The notes below the pieces were generated by a model, which did not search any database, was not told the origin of the DNA, and was given only the letters and a program-made list of their open reading frames with translations. 7,488 nt of DNA from Acetobacteraceae bacterium (lineage in GTDB: Bacteria > Pseudomonadota > Alphaproteobacteria > Acetobacterales > Acetobacteraceae), in NCBI GenBank assembly GCA_030039695.1, contig JASHVB010000006.1, forward strand, positions 1 to 7,488, given 5' to 3'. Positions within the stretch are counted from its first letter, which is position 1. Each line of letters opens with the position of its first letter. The translations under genes and the position numbers were made by a program. Shown here piece after piece: positions 1 through 7,488 of this stretch.

Positions 1-440
1 GACAGTGGGAGCGTCGAGCCGGTAATCTTGGTTGCCCAGCCCCCCATGTAGCGGAACATGTCCACCGCCAGCGGCAGGTCGGCCACGCGCGCAACGGCAT
101 AGGGTTTGCCGTTGTCGATCGATTCCAGCTCGGCCAATTCCTCGAGGTCGCGCTCGATCAGATCCGCGATGCGCCAGAGGATACGGCCACGCTCGGAGGG
201 CGTGATTCTGCCCCAGCGCCGCTCGTCGAATGCGCGTCGCGCCGCGGCCACCGCCAGATCGACATCCGCCTTGTCACCTTCCGGCGCGTTGGCGATCACG
301 CCACCGGTCGCCGGATTGTAGATCGCGAAGGTCTTGCCGGAGACGGCGCCAACCATTTTGCCGTCGATCAGCATGCGAGGCGTCCGTCCCAGAAAGCCGC
401 TCGCATGCCGCAGCCTCGGATCGAGTGCGATCGTGTCCAT
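1..440 (-). CDS. Aldehyde dehydrogenase, N-terminal part (cut by left edge)
   Basis: This is the first 146 residues of an NAD(P)-dependent aldehyde dehydrogenase, an enzyme family that oxidises aldehydes to carboxylic acids in the cytoplasm. Reading on the minus strand from the ATG at 440, the protein shows the usual N-terminal ALDH pattern: MLIDGKMV (residues 23-30), the strand [10 protein letters not shown] (41-50), a helix with AAARRAFDE and [13 protein letters not shown], and the conserved ESIDNGKP (106-113). The catalytic Cys/Glu region lies beyond the window. The start is supported by AGGAGGG (reverse complement of 447-453) six bases upstream. Residues 20-146 resemble the betaine/phenylacetaldehyde dehydrogenase side of the family, but the substrate cannot be told. 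It is divergent from a second ALDH gene, and the shared 148-bp gap holds a ModE-like palindrome exactly at its centre. The family call is firm; the substrate is unknown. Confidence 0.9.
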
Positions 441-502: not shown

Positions 503-526
503 CGCTGTATCCAATCACATACGGCG
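503..526. promoter_or_regulatory. Candidate ModE-type operator between the divergent ALDH genes
   Basis: This is a 24-bp imperfect palindrome with left half CGCTGTAT and right half ATACGGCG separated by 8 bases. Seven of the eight outer pairs are complementary; the fourth pair (T/G) is not. Length, centre of symmetry and CG-N-T-rich half sites agree with known ModE/Mo-box operators, for example the E. coli modA operator, which also spans 24 bp between its outer CG pairs. It shares 17 of 24 bases with the site upstream of the molybdenum hydroxylase (6224-6247). It lies exactly 62 bases from each flanking start codon (440 and 589), so one bound dimer could control both ALDH promoters. The geometry is seen directly; the identity of the binding protein is inferred. 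Confidence 0.6.
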
Positions 527-588
527 CCGAGAGGCGAGTCCCCAGCAGACCGCAATCGCAGCCAGAGGCCCGGAGAGGACGGAACACG

Positions 589-2022
589 ATGTATCGCGAC
601 GTTTCCCTATTCATTGACGGCGCCTGGACACCGGCTAGCGGGAACCGCTCGCTGCCGGTCGTCAGCCCTGCAACGGGCGACACCATCGGCACCGTCGCCC
701 ATGCCGACCGCGCCGACCTCGATCATGCCCTCGAAGCGGCTGACAGGGGATTCCGTGGATGGCGCAAGGTCTCCGCCTTCGACCGTTCGAAGGTAATGCG
801 TAAGGCCGCCGACATCCTGCGCGAGCGTGTCGAGGACATCGCACCTTTGCTCACCATGGAGCAGGGAAAGCCGCTGGCGGAGGCCAAAGGCGAGGTGATG
901 GCAGGGGCGGATGTCATCGACTGGTTCGCCGAGGAGGCCCGCCGTACCTACGGTCGCGTTATTCCCGCCCGTAGCGAAGGCATCTATCAGCTCGTCGTGA
1001 AGGAACCGGTGGGACCAGTCGCGGCCTTCACCCCTTGGAACTTCCCGATCAACCAAGTGGTGCGCAAGTTGTCCTGTGCGCTGGCGGCCGGGTGTTCCAT
1101 CATTGTCAAGGCGCCCGAGGAGACGCCGGCGTCACCGGCCGAACTGATCCGCTGCTTCGCCGATGCCGGCGTGCCGGTCGGCGTGATCAATCTCGTCTAT
1201 GGTGTGCCGGCGGAGATCTCCGAGTACCTCATTCCGCATCCGATCATCCGCAAGATATCGTTCACCGGCTCTACCGCGGTCGGCAAGCAGCTCGCGGCCA
1301 TCGCCGGGGCCCACATGAAGCGCGTCACCATGGAACTCGGCGGCCACGCCCCGGCCATCGTGTTCGACGATGCGGATATCGACACTGCCAGTAAGCTGCT
1401 GGCCACCGCGAAATACCGCAATGCGGGCCAGGTCTGCGTGTCGCCCACGCGCGTGCTGGTGCAGGAACGAGTCTATCAGCAGTTCGTCAACGGCTTTGTG
1501 CGGCACAGCCAGGCGGTCAAGGTCGGCGACGGCCTGGAAGCGGGCACTATGATGGGACCGATGGCCAACCCGCGCCGGATCGCCGCGATGGAGATGTTCA
1601 TCGGCGATGCCACACAACACGGTGCCTCCGTGCGTGCCGGTGGTCATCGCATCGGCAACAAGGGCAATTTCTTCGAGCCGACGGTGATCACCGACGTGCC
1701 GAAGGATGCGCGCATCATGAACGAGGAACCGTTCGGTCCCGTTGCGGTGATATCGCCGTTCAGTTCGTTCGACGAGGTGGTGACGGAGGCCAACCGCCTG
1801 CCGTACGGCCTGGCGTCCTACGCTTATACGCGTTCGGCCAAGACCGCGAACGCCATCGCTGCCGCGGTGGAAAGCGGCATGATCTCAATCAACCATCACG
1901 GTCTGGCGCTGCCGGAAGTGCCGTTCGGCGGCGTGAAGGATTCCGGCTATGGCTCGGAAGGCGGCCTGGAGGCGATCGAGAACTACCTCGTCACCAAGTT
2001 CGTGACGCAGGCCGGCCTGTAG
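589..2022 (+). CDS. NAD-dependent aldehyde dehydrogenase, succinate-semialdehyde dehydrogenase type
   Basis: This is a complete 477-residue aldehyde dehydrogenase, the usual length for the GabD-like branch, oxidising an aldehyde to its acid in the cytoplasm. Key residues are all present: Asn151 in FTPWNFP (oxyanion hole), Lys174 in [10 protein letters not shown], the cofactor loop FTGSTAVG (225-232), general base Glu249 in MELGGHAP, and nucleophile Cys283 in NAGQVCVSP. Glu177, three residues after Lys174, occupies the position that binds the adenosine ribose in NAD-preferring ALDHs, so NAD is the likelier cofactor. The C-terminus ([17 protein letters not shown], then ENYLVTKFV) fits the succinate-semialdehyde group, but other semialdehydes or aldehydes are possible. 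The ATG at 589 is chosen because GGAGAGG (572-578) precedes it and homology begins at FIDG; the frame stays open upstream to 334 without ALDH features. The DUF2325 gene follows after 30 bases. Confidence 0.93.
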
Positions 2023-2052
2023 CTGCGTCGTGGCCGGAGGAGACAGGCAATC

Positions 2053-3327
2053 GTGAGCGCCTCTGGGGCAATCCGGCATGGCACCAACCTGGGCTTGCCG
2101 CCAAAGTTGTTTACTGTCTCCGCGGTCGCGCCGACGCTGGTGGCACGTGACGAGACACCGGCCGCCAACCCGCAGCGTCGGACGAAAATTTGGGAATTCC
2201 ACGGCAACCTGCATTGCTCGATCATCGGCACGTGCCTCTCCACTGACGAGCTGCGGCACGTGCTGAGAAAGCTTGAGATCGTGTCGCCGGGCAGTACCGA
2301 CCATGAATTGCATGCCGCGGCGGTAAGTCTCGCCGGGCGGCACGACAAAGCGGCGAAGCTGCTGCACAAGGCACTGGACGAACGTCACCGTCTGGCGATC
2401 AATCAATTCGCCAAGGCGGCCACCGAAGATGCGGTGCGGGTCTTGTGGCGCGAGGCAGTGCGGGGCGGCGAAATCCCCGGCGCCTATTGGGCGACGCTGA
2501 CGCATCCGGCGACGACGCAGGCACTGGTCCGCGATGCGTTCGGCGAGGTACATATGCTGTCGCATCTTGTCGGCGCCGCCAACCGTGCGGATATCCGTCG
2601 GCTGTGCCAGTTGGAAGCCGAGAACGCCGGGCTGCGCGCACGCCTGGATCGTCAGCAGCTTGCGTTCCGCGACGCCGTGGTGACGCGCGATGCACGCATC
2701 CGCGAACTGAATGACTCCCTGGCGCAGCGCGTCGCATCGGAACCCGCGGCGAGCGAGGATAGTGCTGTGCTGCGGCAGTTGATTGCCGAGCTGGAACGCC
2801 GTCTGGCGGCCGAGACCCGGCGTGGCGTCGCGCTGAACGATAAGCTGGCCGCAACCAGCGCCGCGCTTACGGAGGCGCGCGCAGCCCGCGCGAAGGTGGA
2901 ATGCGATGCGGACGCCTTGCGATGTGAACTGGACTCGATTGCCGATCGTTTTGCCCCAGACAATGACGGCACGGCATCCACGAACGCGCCGGAGCTGCTG
3001 CTGAACGGCGTGAGCGTTCTCTATGTCGGCGGCCGGCCGAACCAGGTGGCTCACCTGCGCGCGGCAGCCGAGCGCGCCGGGGCGATGTTGCTGCACCATG
3101 ATGGCGGCATCGAACACCACCTGCAGCTGCTTGGCGGCCTGACGAGTCAGGCTGACATCGTCGTTTTCCCGGTCGATTGCATCAGTCACCATGCCGCACA
3201 CATGGTAAAGCAACTGTGCCGCCAGGCCGGCAAGCGCTTTGTGCCGCTGCGTTCGGCGAGTGCCACGTCGCTGCTGGCCGCGCTGCGCCAGCCAGAGCTG
3301 GCCGCCGCCGCCAATATCACCGACTGA
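2053..3327 (+). CDS. DUF2325 domain protein with His/Cys-rich N-terminal domain and coiled coil
   Basis: A 424-residue cytoplasmic protein of unknown function, starting at GTG 2053 behind GGAGGA (2036-2041), 30 bases after the ALDH stop, so probably cotranscribed with it. Three parts are visible. Residues 45-180 form a mostly helical domain with potential metal ligands: H50, H54, C55 and C61 in FHGNLHCSIIGTC, then H84/H87, and E165, H167, H171 in GEVHMLSHLVG. Residues 181-296 are a charged, heptad-like region rich in Glu, Arg, Ala and Leu, likely a coiled coil. Residues 320-412 match DUF2325: VLYVGGRPNQ, HHDGGIEHH (348-356), then VDCISHHAAH (374-383) and a KRFVPLRS strand. The alternating strands and helices recall a small Rossmann-like fold. 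No signal peptide or membrane segment is seen. Position downstream of a ModE-like site and beside mop suggests a link to molybdenum, but this is inference only. Confidence 0.85.
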   Translation: MSASGAIRHGTNLGLPPKLFTVSAVAPTLVARDETPAANPQRRTKIWEFHGNLHCSIIGTCLSTDELRHVLRKLEIVSPGSTDHELHAAAVSLAGRHDKAAKLLHKALDERHRLAINQFAKAATEDAVRVLWREAVRGGEIPGAYWATLTHPATTQALVRDAFGEVHMLSHLVGAANRADIRRLCQLEAENAGLRARLDRQQLAFRDAVVTRDARIRELNDSLAQRVASEPAASEDSAVLRQLIAELERRLAAETRRGVALNDKLAATSAALTEARAARAKVECDADALRCELDSIADRFAPDNDGTASTNAPELLLNGVSVLYVGGRPNQVAHLRAAAERAGAMLLHHDGGIEHHLQLLGGLTSQADIVVFPVDCISHHAAHMVKQLCRQAGKRFVPLRSASATSLLAALRQPELAAAANITD

Positions 3328-3330
3328 TCA
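3325..3330. other. Back-to-back stop codons in one TGATCA palindrome
   Basis: The TGA of the DUF2325 gene (3325-3327) and the TGA of mop on the other strand (3328-3330) sit directly side by side, forming TGATCA inside the longer palindrome CTGATCAG. There is no intergenic base. No GC-rich stem followed by a T run is visible, so each transcript must end inside, or overlap, the opposite gene, or use factor-dependent termination. Confidence 0.9.
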
Positions 3331-3534
3331 GACGCCGACCATCACATCAGAGGCCTTGATGACGGCAAACGCCTCCATCCCGGGCTTCAGACTTAGCTCT
3401 TCCGCCGCCTCGTTGGTGATCGAGGCCATGATGGTTACGGAAGGCGAGATCTCGATACTCACATGAGTCGTGGTGGCGCCGGGCTTCACCGTCTTGATCG
3501 TTCCGGCGATCTGATTGCGGGCGGATAGTTTCAT
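3328..3534 (-). CDS. mop: Molbindin (Mop / TOBE-domain molybdate-binding protein)
   Basis: A 68-residue single-domain protein of the molbindin family, small cytoplasmic proteins that oligomerise and bind molybdate or tungstate at subunit interfaces, buffering or storing the oxyanion. The full Mop signature is visible: the N-terminal MKLSARNQIAGTI, the strand VSIEI after a Lys-Pro-Gly turn, SITNEAAEEL (38-47), LKPGMEA, and the C-terminal strand AVIKASDVMV (57-66). Clostridium pasteurianum MopII begins with the same SARNQ element and has the same length. ATG at 3534 is preceded by GGAGG (reverse complement of 3542-3546) seven bases upstream; the frame extends to 3675 without domain features. 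It is transcribed away from modA, sharing the operator region 3535-3686, and its stop touches that of the DUF2325 gene. Confident family call; whether it stores or merely carries molybdate is not visible. Confidence 0.93.
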   Translation of the reverse strand: MKLSARNQIAGTIKTVKPGATTTHVSIEISPSVTIMASITNEAAEELSLKPGMEAFAVIKASDVMVGV

Positions 3535-3618
3535 ACTGCAACCTCCATCGAGTTGTGGCGCGTGAGGCTTCCCCCGGCCGCGGGCAGCTCTGCTCCCGCC
3601 TCTGTGATGTCGGCTTGT

Positions 3619-3642
3619 CGCTATGTGCAGACGGGCATACCG
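3619..3642. promoter_or_regulatory. Candidate ModE-type operator between mop and modA
   Basis: This is a 24-bp imperfect palindrome: CGCTATG (3619-3625), ten bases, then CATACCG (3636-3642). Six of the seven outer pairs are complementary; the third is not. It has the length and half-site layout of the E. coli modA operator and sits where a ModE site is expected, 44 bases before the favoured modA start and 84 bases from the mop start. ModE-molybdate classically represses modABC by covering the promoter. The left arm lies in TTGTCGCTAT (3615-3624), a ten-base string also present at the hydroxylase operator. Confidence 0.68.
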
Positions 3643-3686
3643 TAACAAGTAGCGACCGCTCTTGCTCACCGACAAGGATGTCTTCC

Positions 3687-4436
3687 GTGCGCTTTCTTCT
3701 GGCCCTGTGTCTACTGCTTTCGCCGTTGGCTGCGCGGGCGCAGCAGCTCACGGTATTCGCCGCGGCCAGCCTGACCGATGCCATGAAGGACGTCTCGGTG
3801 GTATGGACCCGAGCAGGCCATCAACCGCTGCGCCTGTCCTTCGGTTCCAGCTCGACGCTGGCGCTGCAAATCGAGCAGGGCGCCCCCGCCAACCTGTTCG
3901 CATCCGCGGACCAGAAATGGATGGACTATCTCGCCGGCAAGCAGCTCATTGCCGCCGACACGCGCAAGGACTTGCTCGGCAACGAGCTCGTGCTGGTGGT
4001 CCCGGCTGACCATCCGCGACCGGTCACCATCACGCCGGGCTTCGATCTGCTCGCCTTGCTTGGCCCGAATGGACACCTCGCAACCGGCGACCCGGCGCAT
4101 GTCCCAGTTGGCATCTATGCCCAACAAGCGCTGCAGAAACTTGGCCTGTGGGAAGCCGTCGCGCCGCGGTTGGCGCCCGCCGCCGATGTCCGTTCCGCCC
4201 TGTTGCTGGTGGAGCGCGGGGAAGCGCCGGCCGGCATCGTCTATGCGACTGATGCGGCGGCGTCGAAAGCTGTGATGGTCGCGGGTACGTTCCCCGCCAA
4301 CACCCATGACCCGATCGCGTATCCCTTTGCAGTCACCAAGGCCGGCGACACGCCGGTGGCGCGGGCGCTCATGACATTTCTCTCCGGACCGCAAGCCCGT
4401 GCCATCTTCATCAAGCGTGGCTTCAAGGTTGAATAA
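3687..4436 (+). CDS. modA: Molybdate ABC transporter, periplasmic substrate-binding protein
   Basis: ModA captures molybdate (and usually tungstate) in the periplasm and delivers it to ModBC. The protein is 249 residues from GTG 3687. It opens with a signal peptide, RFLLALCLLLSPLAARA, with cleavage expected after ARA (residue 18). Mature motifs follow in family order: VFAAASLTDAM with Ser28, GSSSTLALQI (Ser54-56), GAPANLFASAD, GNELVLVVP, VPVGIYAQQAL (Val141), and GIVYATDA with Tyr186, which together supply the neutral hydrogen-bonding oxyanion pocket. GTG 3687 is preferred because AAGGA (3674-3678) lies eight bases before it; ATG 3678 adds only three residues but has AAGG touching it with no spacing. 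The frame is open upstream to 3555 without support. The end overlaps the modB start region. Family and role are firm; molybdate versus tungstate preference cannot be read. Confidence 0.95.
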   Translation: MRFLLALCLLLSPLAARAQQLTVFAAASLTDAMKDVSVVWTRAGHQPLRLSFGSSSTLALQIEQGAPANLFASADQKWMDYLAGKQLIAADTRKDLLGNELVLVVPADHPRPVTITPGFDLLALLGPNGHLATGDPAHVPVGIYAQQALQKLGLWEAVAPRLAPAADVRSALLLVERGEAPAGIVYATDAAASKAVMVAGTFPANTHDPIAYPFAVTKAGDTPVARALMTFLSGPQARAIFIKRGFKVE

Positions 4437-5127
4437 TCTGGCGCTGTCGACAGAGGAATGGGAAGCCGTCCGGCTCACACTGGCTGTGGCGGCCCGCGCC
4501 GTTGGCTTTGGGCTGCCGCTGGCGGTGCTCACCGCATGGGTCCTGACGCGCTATCGCTTTCCCGGTCGCCCCATCGTGAATGCGTTGGTGCACCTCCCAT
4601 TGGTCTTGCCGCCGGTGGTGACCGGCTGGCTGCTGCTGATCATCTTTGGCATTCGCGGTCCGATCGGCTCTTTGCTCTATGACTGGTTCGGCGTGCGGCT
4701 CGTGTTCACGACCGCCGGCGCCAGCCTTGCCTGCGCCGTGATGACCTTCCCGGTGATGGTCCGTGCGGTGCGCTTGTCGCTTGAATCCACCGACCGAGGC
4801 TTGGAGCAGGCCGCACAAACACTCGGTGCAGGCCGCCTCGACAGGCTGGTCAACGTGACACTGCCGCTCGCATCGCCCGGCATCCTGGTGGGCGCGATCG
4901 TTGCCTACGCGACCAGCCTGGGAGAATTCGGCGCGGTCATCACCTTCGCCGCGAACATTCCGGGACAGACGCAGACGCTGCCGTTGGCAATCTACACCGC
5001 ACTGCAGGTGCCTGGCGGCGAAGCGAAGGCCGCCGAACTGGCGCTCGTTTCCGTGGTGCTGGCGCTGATCGGCCTCTTGCTGTCGGAATGGGCCAATAGA
5101 CGGCTGAACGCCGTCCTGGGCCGATGA
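4429..5127 (+). CDS. modB: Molybdate ABC transporter, membrane permease
   Basis: ModB forms the dimeric inner-membrane channel of the transporter. About five hydrophobic segments are visible, beginning with LTLAVAARAVGFGLPLAVL, then LVHLPLVLPPVVTGWLLLII, ASLACAVMTFPVMV, a segment after the EAA loop, and a last one ending LALIGLLL. The cytoplasmic coupling loop that docks on ModC reads GLEQAAQTLGAGRLDR (residues 125-140 from TTG 4429), with the conserved E-AA-G spacing. The start is uncertain: alignment to the usual opening (TEEWEAVRLTL) favours TTG 4429, which overlaps the modA stop (232 residues). GTG 4417 and GTG 4399 are in frame and give 236 and 242 residues; none has a strong ribosome site, so coupling to modA translation is likely. 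The end overlaps modC by four bases (ATGA). Confidence 0.94.
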   Translation: MNNLALSTEEWEAVRLTLAVAARAVGFGLPLAVLTAWVLTRYRFPGRPIVNALVHLPLVLPPVVTGWLLLIIFGIRGPIGSLLYDWFGVRLVFTTAGASLACAVMTFPVMVRAVRLSLESTDRGLEQAAQTLGAGRLDRLVNVTLPLASPGILVGAIVAYATSLGEFGAVITFAANIPGQTQTLPLAIYTALQVPGGEAKAAELALVSVVLALIGLLLSEWANRRLNAVLGR

Positions 5128-6203
5128 GCCTGAGCATCCGGCTGCATCACCGGTTTACGTCGATCGAGATTGATGTCGCGTTTGAAGCCCCCTCACCGGG
5201 GGTCACGGTGCTGTTCGGTCCGTCGGGCTCGGGAAAATCCACCATCATTGCGTCCACCGCTGGTCTGCTGCGACCCGATACGTGCCGCATCGTGGTCGAC
5301 GGCAAAGTGCTGAGCGATACGGCATCCGGTATCTGGCTGGCGCCGGAGCAACGCCGTGTCGGCTTGGTGTTCCAAGATGCGCGGTTGTTCCCGCATATGT
5401 CAGTGGCAACGAATTTGCGCTTCGGACTGCGCCGCGCCCCTCAAGGCCCTGTGCGGTTCGACGATGTTGTTGACTTGCTCGGAATCGGTGCGCTGCTGGA
5501 CCGTCGTCCGCATACCCTGTCTGGTGGTGAACGCCAGCGCGTCGCGATCGGCCGGGCGTTGCTGGCACAGCCCCATCTGCTGCTGATGGATGAGCCGTTG
5601 GCAAGCCTTGATGCAGCCCGCAGGTCGGAAATCATGCCATACCTGACCCGGCTGAAGACTGCGCTCAACTTGCCGATTCTTTACGTGACCCACGCTTTCG
5701 AGGAAGTGACGCAGCTTGCCGATTCGATCGTGCTACTTGACGCCGGACGGCTTCTTGCCAGTGGGCCAATGTCCGAGATCGCTGCACGTGGCGATCTACC
5801 GCTCGCTCAGCGCGACGATGCCAGAGCGCTCCTGACGTGCCGGGTCGCGGAGCACGATTCAGCACGCGGGCTCACGCGTGTGGAAGGCGACGGAGCCACC
5901 CTATGGGTGCCGCAGCTCGACGTGCCGCTGTCGGCGGTTGTCCGGGTACGCGTACCCGCCCGTGAGGTGATCCTCGCCCGGGAACCCCCGGGATCGATCA
6001 GCTTGCACAACGTCCTGCCCGGGGCGGTGCGCCGCATCACCAGCGATCCGGCGAGACGCTCGGTGCTGGTGGAAATCGCCCTGGCCAACGGCGCGTTGCT
6101 CTCTCGCGTCACGCCTGACGCCATTGTCCGGCTGGCATTGGCGCCGGGGCAACCGGTTCTGGCATTGATCAAATCCACATCGATCGAGGTGCTGGCGCCC
6201 TAG
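5124..6203 (+). CDS. modC: Molybdate ABC transporter, ATPase with C-terminal TOBE domain
   Basis: ModC powers molybdate import by ATP hydrolysis at the inner membrane. The 359 residues carry every ABC motif: Walker A GPSGSGKST (32-40), Q-loop Gln84 in VFQDARLFPH (a string typical of ModC), signature LSGGERQ (132-138), Walker B LLLMDEP with Glu157, D-loop SLD (161-163) and switch His190 in YVTHAFEE. Residues about 292-356 form one molbindin-like TOBE domain (SLHNVLPGAV ... VLALIKSTSIEVL), which in this family can bind molybdate and give feedback control. Length matches the E. coli ModC class. ATG 5124 overlaps the modB stop in ATGA, so translation is coupled. The next gene begins 70 bases later behind its own operator-like site. 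Confident assignment. Confidence 0.96.
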   Translation: MSLSIRLHHRFTSIEIDVAFEAPSPGVTVLFGPSGSGKSTIIASTAGLLRPDTCRIVVDGKVLSDTASGIWLAPEQRRVGLVFQDARLFPHMSVATNLRFGLRRAPQGPVRFDDVVDLLGIGALLDRRPHTLSGGERQRVAIGRALLAQPHLLLMDEPLASLDAARRSEIMPYLTRLKTALNLPILYVTHAFEEVTQLADSIVLLDAGRLLASGPMSEIAARGDLPLAQRDDARALLTCRVAEHDSARGLTRVEGDGATLWVPQLDVPLSAVVRVRVPAREVILAREPPGSISLHNVLPGAVRRITSDPARRSVLVEIALANGALLSRVTPDAIVRLALAPGQPVLALIKSTSIEVLAP

Positions 6204-6223
6204 GCATCCGGGTTGCGGTTTGT

Positions 6224-6247
6224 CGCTATATCCTGTTGGATATGGCG
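6224..6247. promoter_or_regulatory. Candidate ModE-type operator before the molybdenum hydroxylase gene
   Basis: This is the best palindrome of the three: CGCTATATCC (6224-6233), TGTT, GGATATGGCG (6238-6247). Nine of ten arm pairs are complementary. The left arm reads CGCTATAT, an exact match to the ModE half-site pattern CGNTATAT. It ends 26 bases before the hydroxylase ATG at 6274, close enough to cover the promoter or the transcript start. TTGTCGCTAT (6220-6229) is identical to the ten bases at the modA site. In E. coli ModE-molybdate activates molybdoenzyme genes and represses uptake; which sign applies here cannot be judged without the transcription start. Confidence 0.72.
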
Positions 6248-6273: not shown

Positions 6274-7488
6274 ATGAATGTGCCGTTCGACCCGACGTTC
6301 TTAATGAGCGAAAGATTTGCTGTCGGTCAGCCGGTCTCCCGCAAGGAGGACCCCGTCCTGCTGCGCGGCCAAGGCCGCTACACCGACGATCTGAACCTTC
6401 CCGGCCAACTCTATGGTGTGATGGCGCGAAGCCGGATCGCGCATGGCACGCTGCGCTCGATCGACGCGGACGCGGCGCGGGATGCGCCCGGCGTGCACCT
6501 GATCGTCACGGCCGCCGACCTCGATGCAGCAGGGATCAAGAACATGCCCGCTGCGGCGGGGAAGAACCGTGACGGCACGCCGACTCCACGGCCGCCGCAA
6601 CGGCCATTGGCGAGCGATCGTGTGCGTTATGTCGGTGAGCCGATCGCGATGGTGGTGGCCGAGACAAGCAAACAGGCGAAGGACGCCGCTGAGTTGGTCC
6701 TTACCGACATCGATCAGCTGCCGGCCGTGACAAGCGCGAGCGCCGCCACGGCGGCCAATGCCCCGCAACTGCACGCCGACGCGCCGGGCAATGTCTGCCT
6801 GGACTTCCACTATGGCGACAGTGAGCAGGTTGCCGCGGCCTTCGCTCAGGCGGCGCATGTCACGAGACTGTCGCTGCGCAACAACCGGATTGTCGTGTGT
6901 CCGATGGAGCCGCGCGCTGCCATCGGCGAGTACGACTCGGAGACGGACCGGCTGATCCTGCGCCTCGGCTGTCAAGGTGTGTTCGGTCAGCGCAACCTGC
7001 TGAGTGGCATCCTCGGCCTGCCGGTGGAGAAGTTGCGCATCCTCACGGGCAATGTCGGCGGCTCGTTCGGCATGAAGGCGTCAGCGTATCCCGAATATGT
7101 CTGTCTGCTGCACGCGGCACGCACCGTCGGGCGGCCAGTGAAGTGGACCGACGAACGGTCCGAGAGCTTCCTGTCCGACAGCCACGGGCGTGACCATGAG
7201 ATGACCGCAGAGCTGGCGCTCGATGCGGACGGCAGGTTCCTCGCTGTGCGCGTGGCGGGTTTTGGTAATCTCGGCGCCTGGCTCAGTAACGCGACGACGA
7301 TCCCGCCGACGGTGAACACGGTGAAGAACATTATCGGCGTCTACGCGACACCGCTGATCGAAGTGTCGTCGAAGTGCATGTTCACCAATACGACACCGGT
7401 GGGTGCGTATCGCGGTGCCGGGCGCCCGGAAGGCAATTACTACATGGAGCGCCTGGTCGACACCGCGGCGCGCGAGATGGGTATCGAC
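6274..7488 (+). CDS. Molybdenum hydroxylase large subunit, CoxL form II / xanthine dehydrogenase family (cut by right edge)
   Basis: The first 405 residues of a molybdopterin-cytosine-dinucleotide-binding subunit, about half the usual 750-800. Enzymes of this family hydroxylate aldehydes, purines or N-heterocycles, or oxidise CO, working with FeS and FAD subunits. It opens GQPVSRKEDPVLLRGQGRYTDD, the standard start of the aldehyde oxidase/xanthine dehydrogenase a/b hammerhead domain (about 18-150). Cofactor-domain motifs follow: MEPR (211-214), GCQGVFGQR (232-240), GGSFGMK (262-268, usually GGGFG-K) and AYRGAGR (378-384). AYRGAGR is the form II signature; true CO dehydrogenases carry AYRCSFR, so CO is unlikely to be the main substrate. 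The catalytic Glu near the C-terminus is outside the window. ATG 6274 is chosen with weak AAAGG (6258-6262); ATG 6304 is an alternative lacking a ribosome site. No FeS or FAD subunit gene precedes it. Confidence 0.9.
   Translation, partial: MNVPFDPTFLMSERFAVGQPVSRKEDPVLLRGQGRYTDDLNLPGQLYGVMARSRIAHGTLRSIDADAARDAPGVHLIVTAADLDAAGIKNMPAAAGKNRDGTPTPRPPQRPLASDRVRYVGEPIAMVVAETSKQAKDAAELVLTDIDQLPAVTSASAATAANAPQLHADAPGNVCLDFHYGDSEQVAAAFAQAAHVTRLSLRNNRIVVCPMEPRAAIGEYDSETDRLILRLGCQGVFGQRNLLSGILGLPVEKLRILTGNVGGSFGMKASAYPEYVCLLHAARTVGRPVKWTDERSESFLSDSHGRDHEMTAELALDADGRFLAVRVAGFGNLGAWLSNATTIPPTVNTVKNIIGVYATPLIEVSSKCMFTNTTPVGAYRGAGRPEGNYYMERLVDTAAREMGID

Follow-up and report, generated by a model that had tools for sequence, protein, structure and literature searches.

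What controls a gene set in which molybdate uptake, a molybdoenzyme, two aldehyde dehydrogenases (ALDH-a and ALDH-b) and a protein with a DUF2325 domain lie side by side? The question is raised by the first 7,488 nucleotides of contig JASHVB010000006.1 of an Acetobacteraceae bacterium (hereafter the window), for which an original prediction had proposed that a 24-base-pair palindrome in each control region is an operator of the molybdate regulator ModE. According to the published accounts, the operator of Escherichia coli and Geobacter sulfurreducens ModE has a two-fold symmetric 24-base-pair core, CGNTATATA-N6-TATATANCG, lying inside a 28-base form, and a site stands before molybdate transport genes (PMC545781, PMC2700814); the window resembles these systems in both respects. 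On the comparisons given below, the three palindromes are very probably operators of a ModE-type regulator, which in relatives is mostly a one-domain protein, and we put the probability of this reading at roughly 0.86.

Three ModE-type operators are predicted in the window

All three 24-mers were found where they had been placed, one in each of the three named intergenic regions (Table 1), and two of them do stand before molybdenum genes, site 2 at modABC and site 3 at the molybdoenzyme gene. The identities reported for them were reproduced (17 of 24 bases between sites 1 and 3, 15 of 24 between sites 2 and 3), sites 1 and 2 sharing just 12 of 24; the statement that the sites have the same centre is wrong if the central bases are meant, as these differ between sites. 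As bare palindromes the sites are ordinary: 16, 14 and 18 of the 24 positions of sites 1, 2 and 3 are self-complementary, and at least 14 of 24 is reached at 196 places in the window. What sets the 24-mers apart is agreement with the ModE core, not palindromy. Compared with a consensus of the ModE type, they show 3, 4 and 1 mismatches in 16 positions and are the three best places of the window, the next having 5. The claimed operator geometry also agrees with the published core, imperfectly at sites 1 and 2 (Table 1); the next two places in the window match 10 positions each. Sites 1 and 2 would be weak if judged only by this count, since at 11 of 16 each by itself falls below the cut of 12 that was used in relatives.

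A weight matrix was then built from 66 sites found in relatives upstream of DUF2325 genes, picked at 12 or more of the 16 positions of the published core, with the window excluded. The three sites are the best places of the window with this matrix (scores in Table 1), and the fourth-best scores -1.1 bits, so that the coding DNA of the window is not matched in the way the sites are, which was one of the checks suggested with the prediction. In 100 simulated windows the same matrix gave a mean of 0.07 places at 8 bits or more, with a top score of 16.3. The operator of the relatives has its arms extended inward, with a preference for C or T at positions 9-10 and for A or G at 15-16, where the centre of the published core is A-N6-T; at position 9, A occurs in 15% of the relatives' sites and C or T in 84%.

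The sites have counterparts at orthologous positions

The relatives were taken from the best 80 of 315 loci with a DUF2325 gene (L numbers denote loci and G numbers genomes), and a box was counted where at least 12 of the 16 fixed positions of the published core were matched. In the closest relative, L001, whose DUF2325 protein is 83% identical to that of the window, boxes are placed as in the window: one separates two divergent aldehyde dehydrogenase genes, and the other lies in the gap from mop to modA. The counterparts of site 1 lie at 3911 in L001 and at 7277 in L002, and that of site 2 at 7033 in L001, with 13 of 16 positions of the published core. The 24-mer of site 3 recurs without a change (24/24) before the orthologous molybdoenzyme gene of Acidisphaera (L007, at 13337), where the upstream flank has diverged, and a further counterpart lies at 12667 in L010. 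The expectation that the sites are conserved in relatives thus stands for each site in at least one relative, while some orthologues are without a box. In L002-L005, L010 and L024, mop lies shortly downstream of modE in the same orientation, so that the box would be expected before modE. Within 350 bases of modE, 12 or more positions are matched in L003, L010 and L024 and 11 in L004, and L002 and L005 have no box there.

The long DUF2325 family is a constant member of the predicted regulon

Upstream of the DUF2325 gene, a box was found in 66 of 79 other loci having at least 300 bases of upstream sequence (L060 was left out, having too little), and 71 of the 79 reach at least 11 positions. Among controls, 12 of 16 was reached by 0.3% of shuffles (n=3950) and by 3.5% of other stretches of the same loci (n=1380). 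Thirteen loci stay below 12 (L001, L002, L003, L005, L006, L007, L010, L012, L028, L036, L043, L052, L056); in four of them (L001, L002, L043, L056) an aldehyde dehydrogenase gene precedes the DUF2325 gene and the box stands before the aldehyde dehydrogenase gene, as in the window. Judged by its upstream sequences, the long DUF2325 family is a regular and very constant member of the predicted regulon and no accidental passenger. By the names of their records, the loci span Acetobacteraceae, Reyranella, Hyphomicrobium, Methylobacterium, Rhizobium, Azorhizobium, Inquilinus, Cupriavidus and Burkholderia. One locus with boxes of the ModE type like those of alphaproteobacteria (L045) comes from a record named Mycobacterium sp. 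KBS0706, a name that may be a mislabel.

The DUF2325 protein of the window matches PF10087 with 64 bits, above the curated cut-off of 33.6. Its structural model (mean predicted local distance difference test score, pLDDT, 85.1; predicted template modelling score, pTM, 0.48) is helical in its N-terminal part, forms a long coiled coil at residues 175-300 and ends in a Rossmann-like C-terminal domain. A fold comparison of the model gave only common receiver-type matches, which indicate no function. In 45 aligned sequences the motif His-Asp-Gly-Gly (349-352), Cys55, Cys376 and several histidines are invariant, among others, and these residues would suit the binding of a metal or ligand. The family has its domain name in common with Cj1384 of Campylobacter, which is, according to the published description, a protein of 104 residues with seven cysteines that is increased under light and oxidative stress; the proteins studied here have about 400 residues, with an extra helical part and a coiled coil (PMC9426514).

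Genes near the DUF2325 gene were called with a simple script in 35 of the 80 loci (188 genes), of which 111 were scanned together and 10 singly. Among the 111 there were ten ModA-like SBP_bac_11 proteins, nine aldehyde dehydrogenases, four FecCD proteins and two MoeA proteins, and two more MoeA proteins were met among the 10 scanned singly. In Azorhizobium oxalatiphilum (L050:11046-11786) a DUF2478 gene lies immediately 3' of the DUF2325 gene.

Aldehyde dehydrogenase genes recur behind the box

In the DUF2325 loci, a box was found at 27 of 47 aldehyde dehydrogenase gene starts, and at 20 of 35 after removal of those sharing the upstream region of the DUF2325 gene, against 4.3% of random stretches of the same loci; since the loci were chosen for DUF2325, these genes are no random sample of aldehyde dehydrogenases. 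In a class genome with no DUF2325 match (L149), a box lies between a one-domain modE gene and an aldehyde dehydrogenase gene. The original prediction had described aldehyde dehydrogenases and a DUF2325 protein as uncommon in ModE regulons; it is amended here in that the DUF2325 family is a very constant member of the predicted regulon, and aldehyde dehydrogenases recur in it as well.

A pattern search of four genomes returned 17 places, compared with 3 for the reversed pattern; 15 of the 17 were fetched, and 20 of their 29 flanking frames were scanned. The search recovered the known DUF2325 and molybdoenzyme sites and found two further aldehyde dehydrogenases (L128, L131). In a relative of Rhodopila (L132), the box (1501-1524) lies 242 bases before the gene of the molybdenum storage protein beta-subunit, MosB (1767-2576; 515.8 bits to 2ogx_B). 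Another of the places (L127) lies about 1 kilobase (kb) from a second ModE domain of its genome.

Relatives encode a one-domain ModE, often beside the DUF2325 gene

The search for ModE covered 65 of the genomes from which the 80 loci come; 12 loci lie in other genomes and 3 in genomes covered through another locus. The ModE DNA-binding domain was found in 62 of the 65: in 22 of 22 of a first batch, where the best expectation value (E) of every genome was no higher than 7e-22, and in 40 of 43 of a second at E 1e-12. The genome of the closest relative (G001) has a one-domain modE, with a frame of 150 residues, beside a mop-like match in two pieces. Within the 80 loci, 40 contain modE, with 42 ModE domains in all; in 39 of these no more than 31 residues follow the domain, which leaves no molybdate-binding part, and the fused molybdate-binding domains of the canonical two-domain ModE were not found in the relatives tested for them. 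One-domain ModE proteins are discussed in surveys of molybdenum use, and a truncated form of E. coli ModE is active in the absence of molybdate.

In an even sample of 192 genomes of the class, the ModE domain was found in 52 at E 1e-12. Seven of the 192 gave a match to the DUF2325 alignment: full-length in G004 and G150, limited to 54 positions in G051, and weak and confined to the coiled coil in the other four. The 66th genome with the family, G150, has two divergent DUF2325 copies, and no box and no ModE match at 1e-12 were found in it. If only G004 and G150 of this sample are taken to have the family, ModE occurs in 62 of 66 genomes with it and in 51 of 190 without it (Fisher p 5e-23, a value that overstates the case, as neither genome size nor kinship was balanced between the sets). 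The best 30 of 54 ModE matches of the class sample gave loci, 29 of them new and one already in the set. Of the newly fetched genes 28 of 29 encode the one-domain form, modE has mod genes as neighbours in 17 of 29 loci, and a box lies within about 3.2 kb around modE in 12 of 29, in nine before a modA-like gene. About 0.01 box per locus of this size would be expected by chance (simulated rate 2.5 per million bases, one strand). In a tree of ModE sequences the one-domain and full-length forms are placed apart (support 100/99, from few columns and with one row to be disregarded).

The modE and DUF2325 genes are frequently neighbours. In 31 of the 80 loci no more than 1 kb separates a one-domain modE from the DUF2325 gene; of these loci 10 are convergent, 10 have modE followed by DUF2325, 6 are divergent and 5 have DUF2325 followed by modE; many of them come from Methylobacterium and Rhodopila. 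Of the 42 modE cases (39 one-domain, 3 full-length), 20 have a box in the 350 bases before the gene, and five of the 20 are boxes held in common with a divergent DUF2325 gene (L015, L018, L022, L027, L054). The most compact module seen is that of L031 (3410-5489), where one strand carries in succession a box, the DUF2325 gene, modE of the one-domain type, another box and mop.

Gene content of the window

The ModA, ModB, ModC and Mop proteins of the window all pass curated cut-offs, and the best NCBIfam match of ALDH-b, which is truncated by the window end, is NF045735, below its cut-off. The DUF2325 gene follows ALDH-a with a gap of 30 bases and is likely cotranscribed with it. At 3325-3330 the stop codons of the DUF2325 and mop genes abut tail to tail, with no base between them.

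Table 1. Genes and predicted operators of the window, with the evidence for each (bits at the operators are scores with the relatives' matrix).
Feature	Coordinates	Strand	Evidence
ALDH-b, StyD-like	3..440	-	PF00171 E 3.6e-27; truncated by window end
Predicted ModE-type operator 1	503..526		between divergent ALDH-b and ALDH-a, upstream of DUF2325 gene via ALDH-a; 17.3 bits; 11/16 of published core
ALDH-a, 477 residues	589..2022	+	PF00171 E 1.1e-160
DUF2325 protein, 424 residues	2053..3327	+	PF10087 E 1.5e-17, residues 321-412
mop, molbindin, 68 residues	3328..3534	-	TIGR00638 71.6 bits, cut-off 55
Predicted ModE-type operator 2	3619..3642		between mop and modABC; 9.5 bits, weakest of the three; 11/16 of published core
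modA	3678..4436	+	TIGR01256 and NF007958 above cut-off
modB	4399..5127	+	NF006939 and TIGR02141 above cut-off
modC	5124..6203	+	TIGR02142 408.2 bits, cut-off 285.05
Predicted ModE-type operator 3	6224..6247		before molybdoenzyme gene; 29.1 bits; 13/16 of published core
Xanthine-dehydrogenase-family molybdoenzyme, large subunit	6274..7488	+	PF02738 E 1.5e-65, PF01315 E 5.6e-26; truncated by window end

Discussion

From these results, a model of the regulation may be proposed. A ModE dimer would bind each box and set the transcription of the surrounding units: ALDH-b; ALDH-a with the DUF2325 gene; mop and modABC, for which site 2 would be common; and the molybdoenzyme gene. With molybdate as the presumed signal, ample molybdate would let ModE shut modABC and reset the enzymes, and at scarce molybdenum aldehyde dehydrogenases of the nicotinamide adenine dinucleotide (NAD) type could replace molybdenum-dependent aldehyde oxidation, in a metal-sparing switch. 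What comparison shows is the likeness of the boxes to the published core, their conservation, and their genetic linkage with predicted genes for one-domain ModE, molybdate transport, molybdenum storage, aldehyde dehydrogenases and DUF2325 proteins. The proposal of a compact molybdate regulon covering all genes of the window was therefore largely right, as judged by the matrix, by conservation and by the boxes before DUF2325 and aldehyde dehydrogenase genes in relatives. Its molybdate-sensing part we only infer, since the regulator in the closest and most of the examined relatives is a one-domain protein lacking the molybdate-binding part.

Several observations weigh against the operator reading. 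Sites 1 and 2 agree with the published core hardly better than two other places of the window; a sigma-70-like promoter was searched for and none was found, so that the sign of the regulation cannot be read from position. The DUF2325 loci are related to one another and are no independent samples, and individual targets are not universal, a box within 300 bases being found at 14 of 33 mop, 6 of 18 modA and 2 of 5 molybdoenzyme genes. The evidence for modE comes from genomes of relatives, the window's own genome being covered within the window only, and ModE was not found at E 1e-12 in 3 of the 65 genomes searched (those of L011, L051 and L060). In the class-sample loci a box stands upstream of modE itself in just 2 of 29, and most other sites of the four-genome search (L119-L127, L129, L130) showed no clear molybdenum link in the flanking frames scanned.

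As to the DUF2325 protein, one account, which we find more likely than not, is that it is only a target, a molybdenum-responsive effector handling, for example, molybdenum or aldehyde stress. The box upstream of its gene in most loci and neighbours such as SBP_bac_11, aldehyde dehydrogenase, FecCD and MoeA are consistent with such a role, which by itself does not explain the frequent direct pairing with the gene of the regulator. A one-domain ModE with no known sensor implies that a second protein should carry the signal, and this could be Mop, the DUF2325 protein or both; alternatively, the one-domain ModE may act through its own amount. It is possible, though we would not expect it, that the DUF2325 protein, perhaps with Mop, is this missing partner, which senses molybdate or molybdenum status and decides on the binding of ModE. 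The close linkage of the two genes in four orientations, which suggests that the two genes were brought or held together in several arrangements, would speak for it, as would the run of DUF2325, modE and mop genes in L031, the presence of ModE in nearly all searched genomes of the family, and G150, where two divergent DUF2325 relatives are accompanied by neither ModE nor a box. The dependence is one-sided, however: of the 52 class genomes with ModE, only G004 has the full family and G051 the short match, so that one-domain ModE is able to work in the absence of the family. In the ModE tree, the rows from DUF2325 genomes fall into more than one group, and their clustering beyond shuffled labels (12 label changes against a mean of 27.3, with 0 of 500 shuffles as low) can be explained by kinship alone; many of the 31 linked loci are kin as well, and the fold comparison yielded no function. 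A fuller proposal, which we find doubtful and offer as a speculation, is that the molybdenum sensor is split, with DNA binding and sensing placed on two proteins: the long DUF2325 protein would serve one-domain ModE as its dedicated signal partner, and their regulon would include metal-free aldehyde dehydrogenases that replace molybdenum-dependent aldehyde oxidation.

Returning to the boxes themselves, another regulator with a ModE-like site might bind them, as the inward extension of the arms and the departure from the published core at position 9 could suggest. We consider this improbable, as modE itself has a box in nearly half of the cases in the DUF2325 loci, and nine boxes of the class sample stand before a modA-like gene adjoining modE. 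That the sites are chance palindromes of GC-rich DNA, where bare palindromes of such quality are common, is dismissed on matrix scores, conservation and placement.

The predicted operators of a ModE-type regulator can be set beside several known systems. ModE of E. coli and G. sulfurreducens is described as a DNA-binding domain with two molybdate-binding domains, in contrast to the mostly one-domain proteins of the relatives, and the regulon predicted here differs from theirs both in the preference for C or T at positions 9-10 and in having aldehyde dehydrogenase and DUF2325 genes as predicted targets. In Desulfovibrio a ModE gene with a DNA-binding domain only is reported, as here, whereas the repeat of that group is CGGTCACG-N14-CGTGACCG and the box of the E. 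coli type is kept in our loci (PMC545781). MopA and MopB of the alphaproteobacterium Rhodobacter capsulatus are described as ModE-like repressors at the Mo-boxes of mopA-modABC and of anfA, the regulator of the molybdenum-free nitrogenase (PMC6925177); the alternative to the molybdenum enzyme is there an iron nitrogenase, and the one suggested here is an NAD-type aldehyde dehydrogenase. A precedent for two enzymes acting on one aldehyde is reported from Aromatoleum, with a tungsten-dependent enzyme and an aldehyde dehydrogenase (PMC6365974). In the literature searched, partly at listing level only, no link between DUF2325 and molybdenum was found, and the titles and beginnings of abstracts searched, which mostly leave subscription literature outside their scope, gave no aldehyde dehydrogenase or DUF2325 protein in a ModE regulon. 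Within this literature, ModE operators and one-domain ModE were already known; new are the long DUF2325 family and aldehyde dehydrogenases in a predicted ModE regulon and the recurrent pairing of DUF2325 with one-domain ModE.

These findings assign an uncharacterised DUF2325 family to molybdenum control and make a prediction that can be tested. As ModE is without a known molybdate sensor in 28 of 29 class-sample cases and in 39 of 42 cases at DUF2325 loci, the question of how the metal is sensed becomes directly testable. They also suggest that aldehyde oxidation in these bacteria may switch between molybdenum-dependent and molybdenum-free enzymes according to metal supply.

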